The translations under genes were made by a program, and so were the position numbers. This document shows positions 3,633-17,053 of a stretch of 24,439 nucleotides of DNA, in pieces (position 1 is the first letter of the stretch; each line of letters opens with the position of its first letter). The notes below the pieces were generated by a model. That model ran no database searches. It was not told the origin of the DNA and saw nothing but the letters and a program-made list of their open reading frames with translations. This DNA is from a virus: positions 1-24,439 of the IMG/VR virus record IMGVR_UViG_3300009593_000118. The stretch is one strand, 5' to 3'.

Positions 3633-4040
3633 CTAGTTGTTCCAAGTTTTCACATCTACTATTGAGTAGATTCTTGTAGGTATTTTATTGAGACCTGATT
3701 CGTTCGTTAGTAGTAAAGAGTTTCTATAATTATTCCAGTCTATTGGATATGATTTATCTAACCTACCACCATTTAATTCACGAATCAAATCATTTAGAGC
3801 ATTGATTGTATAAAGTGTATTTGATTGTTTTTTTCTATGTAGTGAGATTGTATCTGGTACATCTTGTATTGCATCTTCATCATACTCTACGTTATAAGTA
3901 CAGATTAATTGATGATGGTCATCTTCATTTTGAAATACATAAATCTTATCAAAAACAATTTCATTACAAGCGATGATAACATCAATCGTTTCTTTGAAAT
4001 GATTTCTTTTAGTAAATGTACAGAGTAGTTGTGTTCTCAT
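3633..4040 (-). CDS. Conserved-looking hypothetical protein, 135 residues
   Basis: I do not recognise a named family. The protein is soluble, mixed alpha/beta in composition, with no membrane segment or signal peptide. Notable segments are NTLYTINALNDLIRELNGG and KSYPIDWNNYRNSLLLTN, with IPTRIYSIVDV at the C terminus. This layout recalls small unnamed proteins near replication genes of marine T4-like phages, from memory only. It starts at an ATG overlapping the stop of the 643-residue gene by one base (TAATG), so its translation is probably coupled to that gene. The 90-base A/T-rich gap after it holds the SSB leader. Position between polymerase and SSB suggests a replication-linked or regulatory role, but nothing in the sequence proves it. 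It is not RegA-like. Confidence 0.75.
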   Translation of the reverse strand: MRTQLLCTFTKRNHFKETIDVIIACNEIVFDKIYVFQNEDDHHQLICTYNVEYDEDAIQDVPDTISLHRKKQSNTLYTINALNDLIRELNGGRLDKSYPIDWNNYRNSLLLTNESGLNKIPTRIYSIVDVKTWNN

Positions 4041-5971
4041 TATTTTTTCCCCTTAAAACAATTTTGCATATCTGTACTATACGTCATCGTGTTATTTGTT
4101 TTTCCTGTTGCTCCTTCTTTGGAACGATATGTTTTGTAACCTACTTCAGTTCTATTATTATCTTTATCAACTATATAGGTAAATACTCTTTTTCCTGTTA
4201 CAATAGTTTTTTCTTTATCAGCATATTGTAATTCATCTGATTCTTCAAGTTTAAAATTATCTTTAAAATCTTTAGAGTCTTTAACATTTAAACACCCTTT
4301 CAAAACTTCACCATCAACTATATTACCACCCATATTGACATCCATCGATGCTCCCATAATACTTTCAGGATTTCCTTCTTCATATTCTTTAGGTGGGTAA
4401 TCCATCATAGTGAAATGAAAAGCTCTACTTGCTTCTTCAGCTTCCATACTAGTTCCAAATCCTGGATTTGATTTATTTAATTGATTAACTCGTTCTCTTT
4501 GTAGATTGACAACCCTCTCTCTTTGTAATGATAAATTTTTTCTCACGTCTATCCCGTCAATATCTGGATTATCTTTTTGTAAAGTCAACGATACTTTATT
4601 GATTACTTTAGTTTCATTAGTTTTTCCCTTACCGTCGGCAACTAATTTTCTAATCATTTCATATTTTTCTTGTGGTGTTAATTCATCAATCGATTTATCA
4701 TCAGGTAAGTAATCTTTGAATTGTTTTTTTAATACACCACCTTTACCAAATAATGCGGTATCTATATTTTTCTTTAGTGTACCTTTATCTTTTTCAATAA
4801 TATCTATTTGGTCTTTAATTGGTAACTCAGTTAATCTTTTAGCTATCGGAATAGCTTGATTATTATAATTTTCTTCAATGTCATTTATTTTTTCTGATAT
4901 TTCATCTACTATTTTTTTAGCTTTTTGTTTTTTATCATCTGGTATATCAGATTTATCAATGTAACTTTTATAGTTTTCACCTTCTTGTATAATAGTTGAA
5001 TTATCTTGAATATCTGATGTAGCTGTTTTGTCTGAATGAAACTGAAGTAATAAATTACCCTTATCATCTTCAACAAAAGTACCAGTATCGGATGGATTCA
5101 TTCCACCACCACCTGCTTTTATGAAAGTTATCGCATCTTCTTTGTCTACTTCTTGTCCATTAGGTAAAATAACCTTATTAGCATTTTCAACAGATTTTAC
5201 TTGGGCATCTATCGAATCTTTAGCACCATAAAAAGTTAGAGTTTTTTGAGAGTTACCAAACTTCTTTTCTTCTTGTAATCTCTTAACTCTTTTTTGAGTT
5301 CTTTCGTGTTTCTTTTTAGCTGACCGAGCAGATACAATACATTTTGACCAAAGTTTTTTATTTTCAATACCATCAGGTGCTTTACCTGTTCCTGGAGTTA
5401 GTGCTTGTTCTTGTCCTAACTTAGTGTCTTTAGTTTTTTCATACATATCTCTAGCTAATTCTTCTTCTGTCATATCTGGATTTTCATTTAGTGTATGTAC
5501 ACCCTCACCTGAAACTATTTCATTAAATGCTGAACCTGCTCCTCCTGGAGCTGGTTTCATACCAGTTGCTTTTTGGTATCCAGTGTAACCATATTTGAAC
5601 ATATCATTTTTTACTTGATTATCACCTTCTGAAGTATCTCCAGATACTATACTCGTTTTTTTCTTTTTAGGTTCTTTATCTTTTTTAACTTTTTCAATCT
5701 CATCTTCAGAAGCATCTTTAGTAACTAAATCTTGTGTATCTGGATTATGAGTTTGAACTGGATAAACATTACCACTATCTTTGTTCTTTACGATATCAAC
5801 TTCAAGTAAATTTTGCATTAAACCATCAATTACTTCATAAGGCCAACCATTCTCATATAATATCTGAGATAAGTGGTGCAAATGATTAGTGTCTTTTGGA
5901 TTAGGTTGACCATTGTGAACTCTATAACCCCATTCTATAAGTATGTCGTCAAAATCGATTTTCTGGTTCAT
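4040..5971 (-). CDS. Large charged hypothetical protein, 643 residues
   Basis: Function unknown. I place the start at ATG 5971 rather than at an upstream start at 6019, because it overlaps the polymerase stop as ATGA and has AAGGA seven bases upstream. The first 55 residues (IDFDDILIEWGYRVHNGQPN ... ILYENGWPYEVIDGLMQNLL) look like a compact helical domain that I recall at the N termini of other large, poorly described marine phage proteins. Residues about 75-260 are low-complexity and Lys/Glu/Asp-rich, with a strongly basic helix (SARSAKKKHERTQKRVKRLQ). The middle is helical and probably coiled coil. The C terminus ends in YKTYRSKEGATGKTNNTM and a Cys-Phe tail. There are no membrane segments. 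It could be a virion-packaged or DNA-associated protein despite its place among replication genes. It is translationally coupled on both sides. Confidence 0.8.
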   Translation of the reverse strand: MNQKIDFDDILIEWGYRVHNGQPNPKDTNHLHHLSQILYENGWPYEVIDGLMQNLLEVDIVKNKDSGNVYPVQTHNPDTQDLVTKDASEDEIEKVKKDKEPKKKKTSIVSGDTSEGDNQVKNDMFKYGYTGYQKATGMKPAPGGAGSAFNEIVSGEGVHTLNENPDMTEEELARDMYEKTKDTKLGQEQALTPGTGKAPDGIENKKLWSKCIVSARSAKKKHERTQKRVKRLQEEKKFGNSQKTLTFYGAKDSIDAQVKSVENANKVILPNGQEVDKEDAITFIKAGGGGMNPSDTGTFVEDDKGNLLLQFHSDKTATSDIQDNSTIIQEGENYKSYIDKSDIPDDKKQKAKKIVDEISEKINDIEENYNNQAIPIAKRLTELPIKDQIDIIEKDKGTLKKNIDTALFGKGGVLKKQFKDYLPDDKSIDELTPQEKYEMIRKLVADGKGKTNETKVINKVSLTLQKDNPDIDGIDVRKNLSLQRERVVNLQRERVNQLNKSNPGFGTSMEAEEASRAFHFTMMDYPPKEYEEGNPESIMGASMDVNMGGNIVDGEVLKGCLNVKDSKDFKDNFKLEESDELQYADKEKTIVTGKRVFTYIVDKDNNRTEVGYKTYRSKEGATGKTNNTMTYSTDMQNCFKGKK

Positions 5972-13549: not shown

Positions 13550-15082
13550 TTAATCTCTCAAGTAACCTGTATTAGATACGATTTTTCTTAAATAACCATG
13601 TGCTTCTGTATCACTTGATTGTGTAGCACCTGCTGCACTAGCACCAGCTGCTGCACCTGTTGCACTTATTTCTTGACCTCTAACTATTCTTGCTACGTCT
13701 TCAACTGTTTGACCTACTGATTCTGCAAGTGATTGTCTTGCAAGAGCATTCATTTCATTAAACTCAGCTTCACTACCAACTATATTTTTTATTTCTTCCG
13801 CTAGACCTACTTGGTCACCTACGAAAGCTAGTTGACGAGCTTTATCAAGGTTTATTTCTCTACCAACTAATAAAGATGCCTCTAATTGTTTTTCAATACT
13901 TGTTTCAAAATCTAATAATGAGTCTGTTGCTTTAACTATATTATCAAAACTTAAACCTAATTTTTTAGCCTCTACTGCAGCCCTAAATAAATTGTCACCA
14001 CCATCTCTTGAAAACTTAGCAAAGAACTCTGCATTTGATGCAATTTCTGCAAATACTTGACCTGGTGCTACACCTGCTTGTTGTGCTAGTGCACTTAATG
14101 ATTTGATTTGTGCTATTGCACCTTTTTCACCAGCTGCTCCTAGAGCATCAAATATTGGTAATAATTTTGAAGCACTACTTGCACTTACACCTAAAGTACC
14201 CTCAAGTTTTACGAACTCACGAACTAATTGTGTTGTAAGTTTAGTTTGACCACCTAAGTTATTGAGAATTTCTTTTTGAATCGTTGCAATATCATCAGAT
14301 GTCATATCGTACAATTTAGCTTCGAAACCAAGTGCTTTTTGTTGAAATGCTAATTTAGTTGAAGTTGCAAGAGTTAAACCTAATTCTTTTCTAGTGGACT
14401 GTATTCTTTTACCAAAGTCAATAAACTCTGAAACTACTAATGCTGCAGCAGCTGCTATACCCATTGGTAAACCAATTGTAGAAAGTAGATTTTTACCACC
14501 TTCATTTAAAAAACCCATCAAACCAACACTTTTTTTGGTTTGTTTTGAAAATTCTGCTTGACCTTTTACTATTCTGTCTACTATATCTTCTTCTTGACCT
14601 AAAGCTGTTAATCTCTTTTGTAGATTGTCTAAGTTTTCTTGACCAACTTTACTTATAATATCTGCTCTTGTTAATTCACCTTCAGTACCCTCTACTAAGT
14701 TTTCTAATATTTGCTTATCAATACTCTCAAAACGTTCTAATGCTAGCATTCGTGATTTATAAACTTTTGTTTTATTGTTTTCACCTTGCATAATTTTACG
14801 AATTGCATTTATACTATTTCGCTCTGCATTACCAGTTATACCTGCTGACCGTAATCTCTCACCAGCATCAGAAGCAGAAAACTTTGCTATTTGTTCTTTG
14901 TATTGAAGGTGTTTTTGTTCTGAGTCTTCTATTCTTTTTTCAAATTTGAGTTGTTGTTCAACCTTTACAATAATTTTATCTAAATCTGAAAGTTCTTTAG
15001 CGGTAATATTTTGCTTTTGTTTGAGTATTTTCAAACTCTCTCGTTGTAGTTCTAATTCTTGTATAGTTTGTTTTTGTGCCAT
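13550..15082 (-). CDS. Tail tape measure protein
   Basis: A 510-residue, mostly helical protein. Residues 1-70 are a Lys/Glu/Gln-rich coiled coil. Residues about 200-221 (LLSTIGLPMGIAAAAALVVS) form one hydrophobic segment, as in tape measure proteins. It continues with Ala-rich helices (KLLPIFDALGAAGEKGAIAQ; FNEMNALARQSLAESVGQT) and an Ala/Gly linker near the C terminus. Tape measures set tail length and are ejected into the host; T4 gp29 is 590 residues, so this would give a somewhat shorter tail. It follows the chaperone block, the standard position. It begins 2 bp after the 88-residue gene, without a Shine-Dalgarno sequence, which suggests translational coupling. Confidence 0.8.
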   Translation of the reverse strand: MAQKQTIQELELQRESLKILKQKQNITAKELSDLDKIIVKVEQQLKFEKRIEDSEQKHLQYKEQIAKFSASDAGERLRSAGITGNAERNSINAIRKIMQGENNKTKVYKSRMLALERFESIDKQILENLVEGTEGELTRADIISKVGQENLDNLQKRLTALGQEEDIVDRIVKGQAEFSKQTKKSVGLMGFLNEGGKNLLSTIGLPMGIAAAAALVVSEFIDFGKRIQSTRKELGLTLATSTKLAFQQKALGFEAKLYDMTSDDIATIQKEILNNLGGQTKLTTQLVREFVKLEGTLGVSASSASKLLPIFDALGAAGEKGAIAQIKSLSALAQQAGVAPGQVFAEIASNAEFFAKFSRDGGDNLFRAAVEAKKLGLSFDNIVKATDSLLDFETSIEKQLEASLLVGREINLDKARQLAFVGDQVGLAEEIKNIVGSEAEFNEMNALARQSLAESVGQTVEDVARIVRGQEISATGAAAGASAAGATQSSDTEAHGYLRKIVSNTGYLRD

Positions 15083-15084
15083 AT

Positions 15085-15351
15085 TTAAATACTATAATTT
15101 TTTTCGATATCTTTGATTTGTTCTGGTGATAGTTTTGAATATAAAGATTTAAGATTTTTTTCCATAGCTTTACTATTAGCTCTTATTTTTTCAACATTAG
15201 CTTTTAACTTTGGATTTTTATTAATAATTTTTTCAATAGCTTTTTTATCAGAAGATTTTATAGGTTTAGTTTTACCTAATGATTTACCTAAAACAGTGCC
15301 TAAAGTTGCAGCTAATAAATTTGATAATATACTTTCATTGATTTTTGCCAT
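15085..15351 (-). CDS. Small helical protein between chaperone and tape measure, 88 residues
   Basis: An 88-residue protein with an N-terminal hydrophobic stretch (SILSNLLAATLGTVLGKSLG) rich in small residues, then a basic helical body (KAIEKIINKNPKLKANVEKI) ending in SPEQIKDIEKNYSI. An in-frame TTG at 15390 would add 13 residues. The ATG at 15351 has CGGAG seven bases upstream, and the extra codons overlap the ATAYTTAT motif, so I choose the ATG. Function unknown. Its place immediately before the tape measure gene suggests a minor tail or tape-measure-associated protein. Confidence 0.75.
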   Translation of the reverse strand: MAKINESILSNLLAATLGTVLGKSLGKTKPIKSSDKKAIEKIINKNPKLKANVEKIRANSKAMEKNLKSLYSKLSPEQIKDIEKNYSI

Positions 15352-15388
15352 TGTATTCTCCGAATTAAAAAGAGTGTTATAACTCAAC

Positions 15389-15399
15389 AATAAATATCA
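15389..15399 (-). promoter_or_regulatory. Intergenic ATAYTTAT motif upstream of the 88-residue gene
   Basis: Coding-strand reading TGATATTTATT, about 38 bases before the chosen ATG and 14 bases past the stop codon of the frameshifted chaperone extension. Confidence 0.35.
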
Positions 15400-15412: not shown

Positions 15413-15617
15413 TTATTTTTTATACTTGTTAATTTGTTTTTGTGTTTCTTCCGCTTCTTTTTTGTAGTATGAATGTAGTCTTTTCAAATAAAAAGAGCGT
15501 AAATATACAGGTAAGTTGTAAGCTTCACTAAAAGTGAAACCACCTTTTGAATGAAGAATTAATTGAAATATTTCTTCGTGGATACCCCTTTTATATTCGG
15601 GTGTCAGGCCAAAAAAA
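15413..15617 (-). CDS. Frameshifted C-terminal extension of the tail-assembly chaperone
   Basis: In the frame one base ahead of the chaperone frame, 65 sense codons run from GGC (15610) to TAA (15415-15413). They begin GLTPEYKRGIHEEIFQLILH, continue SKGGFTFSEAYNLPVYLRSF and end in a charged helix (KKEAEETQKQINKYKK). The frame has no ATG, GTG or TTG in its first half and is closed upstream by a TGA, so it is unlikely to be made on its own. Joining at UUU UUU by +1 gives 241 + 65 = 306 residues; by -2 gives 307. The -1 frame stops after two codons. The composition looks like a real protein, with a strong amphipathic helix and the NLPVYLRSFYLKRL patch. Lambda GT and similar two-part chaperones are the closest known logic. 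The join is inferred. Confidence 0.68.
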
Positions 15618-16334
15618 TCGGACGGTGACTGGGATAGTCACCAACGTCTCCTTCCCGTCTATCTCTACAAAAGTTGACATATCGACATCTGGTGTTCTTT
15701 TCAACATATGTCTTCTGAACTCAATAGAATCAATGGAAAGAAATTCGTTATCTACAAAATTGTTAATGTGTTTCTTATCTGTTTTACCATCTACAGATAA
15801 AATAATATGTTTTAATCTTGTAGTTAATTCTGGTGAACTGTCTTTAGCAATTTTCTGTATAGCTTTTACTTCTTCATCAATATTATTTTCATCATTACCT
15901 GTTAAAAGTTTATACGTGATTTCTCTTTCTGAATTAGGTAACTTAAAACTAAATTCATTATTACCTTTAACTACATCATCAAAATCCATTGCTATAGGTT
16001 CTAACTTAGATAAATCAATAGTTACTTCTGTGCCTTGATATTCGAATTTATACTCTTTACCATAACCAAGAATACGTGCAGATACCATAATAGCATTTTT
16101 GTCACCAACTAATAAATCACTAACTTTAATTTTTTTATCGATTATTAAAGCTTCTAGTAATTTATCTATTACTGTACCTTGTTGTATTAAGTTCTGAGAA
16201 GTAAGAATATCTTCTTCTTTTGCAGTCATATATTTAATTTCTACTTTACCACTTGATAGTGGATGACCTTGTGGGTAGAAATACCCTTTGGATGGTAAAT
16301 CAACCATCTCTGTAGGGAATTTGTAATCAGCCAT
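15591..16334 (-). CDS. 26: gp26/T4_baseplate-family tail-assembly chaperone, unshifted form
   Basis: A 247-residue member of the family named T4 base plate protein (T4 gp26-like). The N terminus is diagnostic: VDLPSKGYFYPQGHPLSSGK, then VEIKYMTAKEEDILTSQNL. The middle contains two beta-rich halves and a helical stretch (NNIDEEVKAIQKIAKD). The end is VTIPVTVRFFWPDTRI. The gene lies between tube and tape measure, where tail-assembly chaperones lie in most tailed phages, and it ends in a T7 slippery run followed by an open second frame. I therefore call it a chaperone rather than a virion hub protein. AGGAG lies six bases before the ATG. The last 14 or so codons before the T run are unusually G/C-ending. 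Confidence 0.85.
   Translation of the reverse strand: MADYKFPTEMVDLPSKGYFYPQGHPLSSGKVEIKYMTAKEEDILTSQNLIQQGTVIDKLLEALIIDKKIKVSDLLVGDKNAIMVSARILGYGKEYKFEYQGTEVTIDLSKLEPIAMDFDDVVKGNNEFSFKLPNSEREITYKLLTGNDENNIDEEVKAIQKIAKDSSPELTTRLKHIILSVDGKTDKKHINNFVDNEFLSIDSIEFRRHMLKRTPDVDMSTFVEIDGKETLVTIPVTVRFFWPDTRI
15611..15642 (-). promoter_or_regulatory. Candidate programmed frameshift site with upstream hairpin
   Basis: The mRNA reads CGA UUU UUU UGG CCU; the seven U are at 15617-15611. A tRNA-Phe on UUU can re-pair on UUU one base forward (+1) or two back (-2), and both enter the open 65-codon frame. Six bases upstream lies a perfect hairpin, GGTGACT-ATCCC-AGTCACC (15642-15624). Further upstream, AAGGAG (about 15654-15649) is a strong internal Shine-Dalgarno sequence. 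Hairpin, slip run and open frame are seen directly; recoding is inferred. Transcriptional slippage on the U run is an alternative mechanism. Confidence 0.65.
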
Positions 16335-16567: not shown

Positions 16568-17053
16568 CTAGAATTGTAAGATTGCGTAATCGTATTTAAG
16601 TGTTAATGTAATTTCAGCAGGGTCACTTGTAGCATAATCTAAATCACCAAAGTTAGCCTGTTCAATATATGTACCTTTTAATGTCCACTCTTCTACTACA
16701 TCACCAACTGGACCTAACATATTAAAAGTCACATCTTTCTTATACATATCTGAATAACCATCACGACCTGTTACAGATTCGTGTGATAGTCTAACCCATT
16801 CCATAACTGCTTGAGCAGCACTTGGTACTACTGGGTCATAAAGTACTATGTCAATCGGTTGCCAAGCACCTTTTCCTTTTATATATCTTTTTACGTTTAT
16901 ATGGTCAAGTATAATTTCCTCGAACTGTATTTGAGGTCTGTTACCTGCTTTGATTAGATATGCTGGTACACCTTCAATGTACATAATGAACCGATTTTTA
17001 GTTTTCGGTTCAAACGGAGTAAACATAATTTCTGAAGGGTCTAATGTAGCCAT
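16568..17053 (-). CDS. 19: Tail tube protein (gp19-like)
   Basis: A 161-residue tail tube protomer, which stacks as hexamers inside the sheath. Typical features are the N-terminal FTPFEPKTKNRFIMYIEGVP, then PAYLIKAGNRPQIQFEEI, the central IVLYDPVVPSAAQAVMEWVR and MYKKDVTFNMLGPVGDVVEE, and the end DPAEITLTLKYDYAIL. T4 gp19 is 163 residues, so the length fits. AGGAG precedes the ATG. It lies directly after the sheath gene, separated by a strong terminator and an ATAYTTAT motif, so it may have its own transcription start. That would fit the need for many copies. Confidence 0.94.
   Translation of the reverse strand: MATLDPSEIMFTPFEPKTKNRFIMYIEGVPAYLIKAGNRPQIQFEEIILDHINVKRYIKGKGAWQPIDIVLYDPVVPSAAQAVMEWVRLSHESVTGRDGYSDMYKKDVTFNMLGPVGDVVEEWTLKGTYIEQANFGDLDYATSDPAEITLTLKYDYAILQF

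Follow-up and report, generated by a model that had tools for sequence, protein, structure and literature searches.

The window analyzed here, a stretch of 24,439 nucleotides of viral DNA, encodes on its minus strand a tail sheath gene and, in this order, a tail tube gene, a gene of the T4 gp26 family, and a tape-measure-like gene. The gp26-family gene and its surroundings contain the following features, listed in the direction of reading.

16568 to 17053, minus strand: tail tube protein (gp19-like; phrog_4542, E 1.4e-27), upstream neighbor of the putative chaperone gene
15591 to 16334, minus strand: predicted short form (TAC-N), gp26 family, 247 aa, 0 frame (open reading frame; phrog_150; AlphaFold2 pLDDT 89)
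15648 to 15653, minus strand: Shine-Dalgarno (SD)-like AAGGAG, spelled by AAG and GAG, both minority codons (anti-SD pairing across the family peaks at -36 to -27)
15624 to 15642, minus strand: upstream hairpin GGUGAC-UAUCCCA-GUCACC, its 3' base 6 nt before the U7 run (shuffles, covariation, clade conservation)
15618 to 15620, minus strand: CGA codon directly 5' of the slip codons, a minority Arg codon (11/150), invariant in the window clade
15611 to 15617, minus strand: U7 of the putative slip site CGA-UUU-UUU-UGG, invariant in 24 window-clade representatives (UUU-YUU-U in 93/93 relatives)
15612 to 15614, minus strand: proposed P-site codon UUU, part of the U7 slip site
15609 to 15611, minus strand: proposed A-site codon UGG, at the 3' edge of the U7 slip site
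15591 to 15593, minus strand: 0-frame stop codon closing the short form (sequence)
15413 to 15610, minus strand: predicted +1-frame extension (TAC-C), 65 codons plus TAA, without a start codon (open frame, dN/dS, helical model)
15085 to 15390, minus strand: small open reading frame between the putative chaperone and tape measure genes
13550 to 15082, minus strand: probable tape measure protein, 510 residues, the downstream neighbor (similarity to a phage immuto protein)

Residues 5 to 242 of the 247-residue N protein match phrog_150, named "baseplate hub" (E 1.1e-9 in a profile search; E 5.2e-12 in the search over the window), and PF12322 gave no match to this protein at E ≤ 1. The protein encoded at 13550 to 15082 shares 35% identity over 105 aa (E 2e-14) with a protein annotated as tape measure in Flavobacterium phage immuto, and the small open reading frame before it has no convincing family match. 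The order of tube, gp26-family gene, and tape-measure-like gene is alike in the window and its relatives; this order and the similarity to the immuto protein agree with the initial annotation, which had placed the gene after the tube and before the tape measure.

The 3' end of the gene reads CGA UUU UUU UGG CCU GAC ACC CGA AUA UAA, and translation in the 0 frame ends in VRFFWPDTRI followed by the stop. Reading in the +1 frame gives RFF-GLTPEYKRGIHEEIFQLILHSKGGFTFSEAYNLPVYLRSFYLKRLHSYYKKEAEETQKQINKYKK, which continues for 65 codons past FF to a TAA at 15413 to 15415, and the -1 frame gives FFLA-stop. From these letters the initial annotation had proposed a frameshift in the U run, with further protein-like sequence open to a +1 or -2 shift and closed to a -1 shift after two codons. 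Its sequence and coordinates (U7 at 15611 to 15617, stop at 15591 to 15593) are accurate, the 65 codons without a start are there in the window, with the +1 frame open in relatives too, and the early -1 stop is as described.

All 38 IMG/VR relatives that span the junction carry CGATTTTTTTGGCC and an open +1 frame. In a further, more distant set, 80/80 relatives extend furthest in the +1 frame, with UUUUUUUGG as the slip site in 58, UUUCUUUGG in 20, and UUUCUUUAC in 2. Removal of near copies left 93 non-redundant relatives, with TTTTTTTGGCCT in 72, TTTCTTTGGCCT in 18, TTTCTTTACCCT in 2, and TTTTTTTGGCCA in 1; UUU-YUU-U(GG/AC)-CC and the +1 frame are kept in every one, and just three have a +1-frame ATG close to the junction. 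Conservation of the slip site (UUU-YUU-U) and of the second open frame, which the initial annotation had proposed to check by alignment of homologs, extends to 93/93, far more than chance would give. At synonymous sites, no other five-codon stretch of the gene is as conserved within the window clade as ACC-x-CGA-UUU-UUU, in which the two minority codons, ACC and CGA, are invariant among the 24 representatives, as are the two UUU codons. Within the extension, 61% of changes fall at third positions of the +1 frame, and the median dN/dS is 0.08, compared to 0.25 for the end of the upstream gene. Comparison of the relatives shows a conserved second frame with selection on it, and by these substitution measures the extension is under strong purifying selection.

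The extension alone found no family match in family libraries, and tblastn with it among named phages gave convincing matches only in Microcystis phages, Flavobacterium phages, and one uncultured jumbo phage. In the immuto locus, a 36-codon "hypothetical protein" is annotated within the +1 extension (4839 to 4949) and the fusion was missed. Relative L040 has an early frame break in its N gene (locus ~3784 to 3870) with a normal junction, probably a local indel or assembly fault. A gene for the extension only, with its own start and no slippery run, which the initial annotation had named as contrary evidence, is not found in the +1 branch; T4 does encode gp51 separately, but that protein includes an N domain of its own.

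In which direction would ribosomes shift at this site? The initial annotation had allowed for +1 or -2, and the evidence from relatives favors the first and disfavors the second. Variant sites read UUU CUU UGG, UUU CUA (LR756508), and UUC UUU CGU (GXN1). Judged by hand, full re-pairing at UUC-UUU-CGU of GXN1 is possible only from UUU to UUC at +1, and -2 never works; in the UUU-CUU-UGG and UUU-CUA relatives, the best re-pairing is also at +1. In bacterial RF2 the slip codon is CUU_U, and before a stop UUU ranks with the next slipperiest codons (PMC10885494; PMC5009743). The pattern of the sites therefore favors +1 over -2 as the direction of the shift. A -2 ribosomal frameshift, as in phage Mu, would yield the same fusion with one extra Phe (RFFFGL), since -2 and +1 enter the same frame, and the U7 of the window does let tRNA-Phe re-pair at -2. 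However, it has no workable re-pairing in GXN1, whereas the +1 step from UUU to UUC is perfect there, and the UUU CUU UGG relatives (18/93 plus two UUUCUUUAC) fit an RF2-type CUU_U +1 slip. We regard the -2 shift as improbable, although it fares best among the alternatives.

Slippage of RNA polymerase on the T7 run with help from the nascent hairpin is marginally less probable again. It would generate mRNAs minus one U that encode the long form; the U7 run is a possible slippage site, and the hairpin before it resembles the stem-loop-stimulated slippage described in PMC5009743. Yet UUUCUUU in 20/93 relatives and UUUCUA in relative L048 leave a homopolymer of at most three and keep the same frame, in L048 together with a hairpin, and a conserved SD-like element points to the ribosome. 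Because those 20 relatives lack a homopolymer sufficient for transcriptional slippage, we infer that a ribosomal +1 shift is the explanation common to the sites of the family.

The SD-like element was recognized because anti-SD pairing peaks sharply at -36 to -27, where the mean duplex energy is about -7 compared to about 0 over most of the gene (-8.1 observed versus -3.3 in synonymous shuffles). The residues encoded there vary (EEV, KEF, GGV, EGV) and GGAGG-like sequence persists. The element lies ~26 nt upstream of the slip site, and between the two is a hairpin that in the window has a z score of -3.9 against synonymous shuffles. In the window clade, GGUGAC-N7-GUCACC and its register variants have a mean z of -3.1 versus -0.3 for control windows, their pairs covary (the covariation score was reached in 0/500 shuffles), and the hairpin is present in 26/26 sequences, where synonymous shuffles predict 8.1 ± 2.0. 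Over the non-redundant relatives it occurs in 64/93 (expected, 25 ± 3.8; maximum, 34 in 200 shuffles), but outside the window clade in only 38/67 (expected, 16.7 ± 3.1). In Microcystis phage Mel-JY01 and jumbo phage LR756508 this position is occupied by hairpins of a different build, and in Flavobacterium phage immuto, RM378, GXN1, and LIS04 no hairpin is present in the region upstream of the slip site. RNA structure 3' of the slip site is weak (mean z, -0.5).

According to the review PMC5009743, the +1 shift of RF2 is stimulated by a 5' SD, synthetic tests indicate that +1 shifting could also be stimulated by a stem-loop on the 5' side, and in T4 gene 60 bypassing a 5' stem-loop is believed to pull the mRNA. 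The window family resembles bacterial RF2 (prfB) in its P-site CUU or UUU followed by U and in its upstream SD-like stimulator. In RF2, however, the SD adjoins the slip codon and the A site holds UGA, whereas here the SD-like element is ~26 nt off, a hairpin stands between, and the A site holds UGG; the RF2-type cassette with an adjacent SD and UGA in the A site is not found in the window. Because a spacing of ~26 nt far exceeds that of RF2, action of the SD-like element would need the hairpin or some other explanation. Under loose criteria, 60 sequences have a distance from SD to slip site of about 9 nt, rather than about 26 nt, once the hairpin is looped out. We infer that the shift is stimulated by both elements, the SD-like sequence and the hairpin that follows it.

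The same upstream region invites another reading, in which AAGGAG and an in-frame GTG six bases on recruit ribosomes near the slip site and internal initiation makes the C-terminal part. AAGGAG-like sequence with GTG is present in 21 to 22 of 24 window-clade members, and an internal start, 26', is annotated in T4 gene 26. Against this, ribosomes starting there would still need a shift to enter the extension frame, relative L035 has no GTG, and outside the window clade the SD-like element persists with no regular start codon after it. As an explanation for the family, an internal start was rejected, as a start codon is not regular beyond the window clade, and we consider it very unlikely for the locus. 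At 15639 to 15653 of the window (minus strand), AAGGAG with the in-frame GTG six bases on does resemble a start signal, as it does in most of the clade. A sequencing error or a decayed gene, the former raised by the initial annotation as reads with six T, is refuted by the comparative data and has next to no likelihood: nothing speaks in its favor, every independent assembly has U7 or UUUCUUU, and the extension is under strong purifying selection.

We return to a programmed +1 shift, and consider it very probable that the locus is a two-product tail assembly chaperone gene of the gp26/gp51 family (phrog_150) in which ribosomal +1 frameshifting makes the long form. The programmed, two-part design proposed at the outset draws support from the site in more than 90 non-redundant sequences, from gene order, and, weakly, from the fold. 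From the pattern of slip sites, the mechanism would be ribosomal and its direction +1. The majority of ribosomes would read the 0 frame to the stop and make the short form. A minority, with UUU (CUU in relatives) in the P site meeting UGG in the A site, would move forward one base, re-pair on UUU, and resume reading from GGC, so that the long form would end in a helical C-terminal domain of 65 residues. The hairpin may bring the SD nearer to the slip site or pull the mRNA forward. On the model of lambda gpG/gpGT, coating of the tape measure protein would fall to the short form and recruitment of tube subunits to the extension.

The lambda G/GT pair and the window share a short and a long form from one gene, a position between tube and tape measure, and an extension without a start codon; lambda differs in its protein family and its -1 shift, compared to a proposed +1 shift at UUU-YUU-UGG preceded by a hairpin and, farther upstream, an SD-like element. 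Among other tail chaperones, that of Mu uses a -2 shift and those of certain further phages a +1 shift. Family, position, and fold together suggest the chaperone role in the window. When the N part and the extension were folded as separate chains with AlphaFold2, the N part (15594 to 16334) reached a pLDDT of 89 and the extension was modeled as three helices with a pLDDT of 90. The two best solved structures for the N-part model after realignment were YqbN, presumably a phage-derived chaperone relative (Z 5.1, residues 1 to 93), and the HK97 tail assembly chaperone 2ob9 (Z 4.5, residues 125 to 216), both middling scores. The modeled fold weakly supports the chaperone assignment, and these matches would not stand alone. 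A sequence search of solved structures with the fused profile gave no relevant match. That residues 1 to 93 and 125 to 216 match different tail-chaperone-like structures hints at two tandem chaperone-like domains.

Tail chaperone shifts have been described as widely conserved except in T4 (review, PMC5009743). PF12322 and phrog_150 each match T4 gp26 (208 aa) as well as T4 gp51 (249 aa). The two proteins are similar to each other, gp51 being a gp26 domain with an extra C-terminal stretch (phrog_150 positions 235 to 280), and their genes are separate and on opposite strands. Within the shared PHROG family, gp26 resembles the short form of the window and gp51 the long form, but T4 has two genes and no frameshift. 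In cyanophages and related myoviruses, gp26 ends in U UUU UUC NNN stop, with small variations, and the gp51-like part lies in the -1 frame. Among additional contigs of this kind, 80/80 have the -1 frame open, an SD-like element lies at -18 to -9, about 10 nt upstream, in 71/78, and no upstream hairpin was found (z 0.1). Cyanophages (Kyanoviridae) and the window thus have a homologous N protein and a second-frame C-terminal part at the matching FF position, but the cyanophages combine -1 with a close SD and no hairpin, whereas the window combines +1 with a distant SD and a hairpin. The cyanophage-type site (U-UUU-UUC) is not found in the window, where the -1 frame stops after two codons, and the close relatives are all +1. 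Several other cyanophages have the gp51-like -1 extension annotated as a separate gene with an internal start, and in Synechococcus phage ACG-2014b it is unannotated (locus 2212 to 2391).

How are the two shift types and the T4 genes related? In profile comparison, window-type extensions align with cyanophage -1 extensions over 46 columns (E 1.3e-4; probability, 53%), and the whole fusion has no significant match to the T4 gp51 set (E 0.41). The protein tree places 19 +1 sequences and the outlier LR756511 on one side of a 100/100 branch, with the -1 and T4 sequences on the opposite side, where gp26 and gp51 group together beside the -1 rows, a long-branch placement that is unsure. LR756511, on the +1 side, has GGG-UUU-U, a heptamer of the -1 type (locus ~4700 to 4771), and its C-terminal-like frame could alternatively start at its own ATG. 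Complete +1 genomes have neither a second phrog_150 match nor a phrog_634 match. Because of the grouping in the tree, the direction of the shift probably changed once or a few times in the family, and the two genes of T4 look like a shift replaced by duplication.

The chaperone assignment of T4-like genes is already known. Vladimirov, Gautam and Davidson (2022, Virology 566:9-15) reportedly identified the tail assembly chaperone genes of T4-like phages and made the case that these phages use a mechanism different from frameshifting, and PMC12846349 credits polyT -1 signals in T4-like TAC-N genes to them. The initial annotation's view of the family as true tail assembly chaperones is supported, but as a recasting it is not new. 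No report of the +1 site was found in the open-access literature; the +1 mode, the cassette of SD and hairpin, and the change of direction within a family appear new. A switch of direction at a homologous site, a T4 duplication beside the -1 branch, and the SD-hairpin-slip arrangement as a new +1 stimulator together form a reading to which we give an even chance.

If that reading is true, the SD-hairpin-slip unit would stimulate +1 shifting in a new way, the hairpin setting the working distance of the SD or drawing the mRNA forward. Standard reporters could be used to dissect this +1 signal, with its hairpin and its internal SD-like element. The long form was missed by gene annotation in the +1 genomes examined. 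The family of T4 gp26 and gp51 appears to recode in most sampled members, in two opposite directions, with the T4 genes beside the -1 branch, which makes it possible to test how the T4 arrangement arose and how the direction switched.
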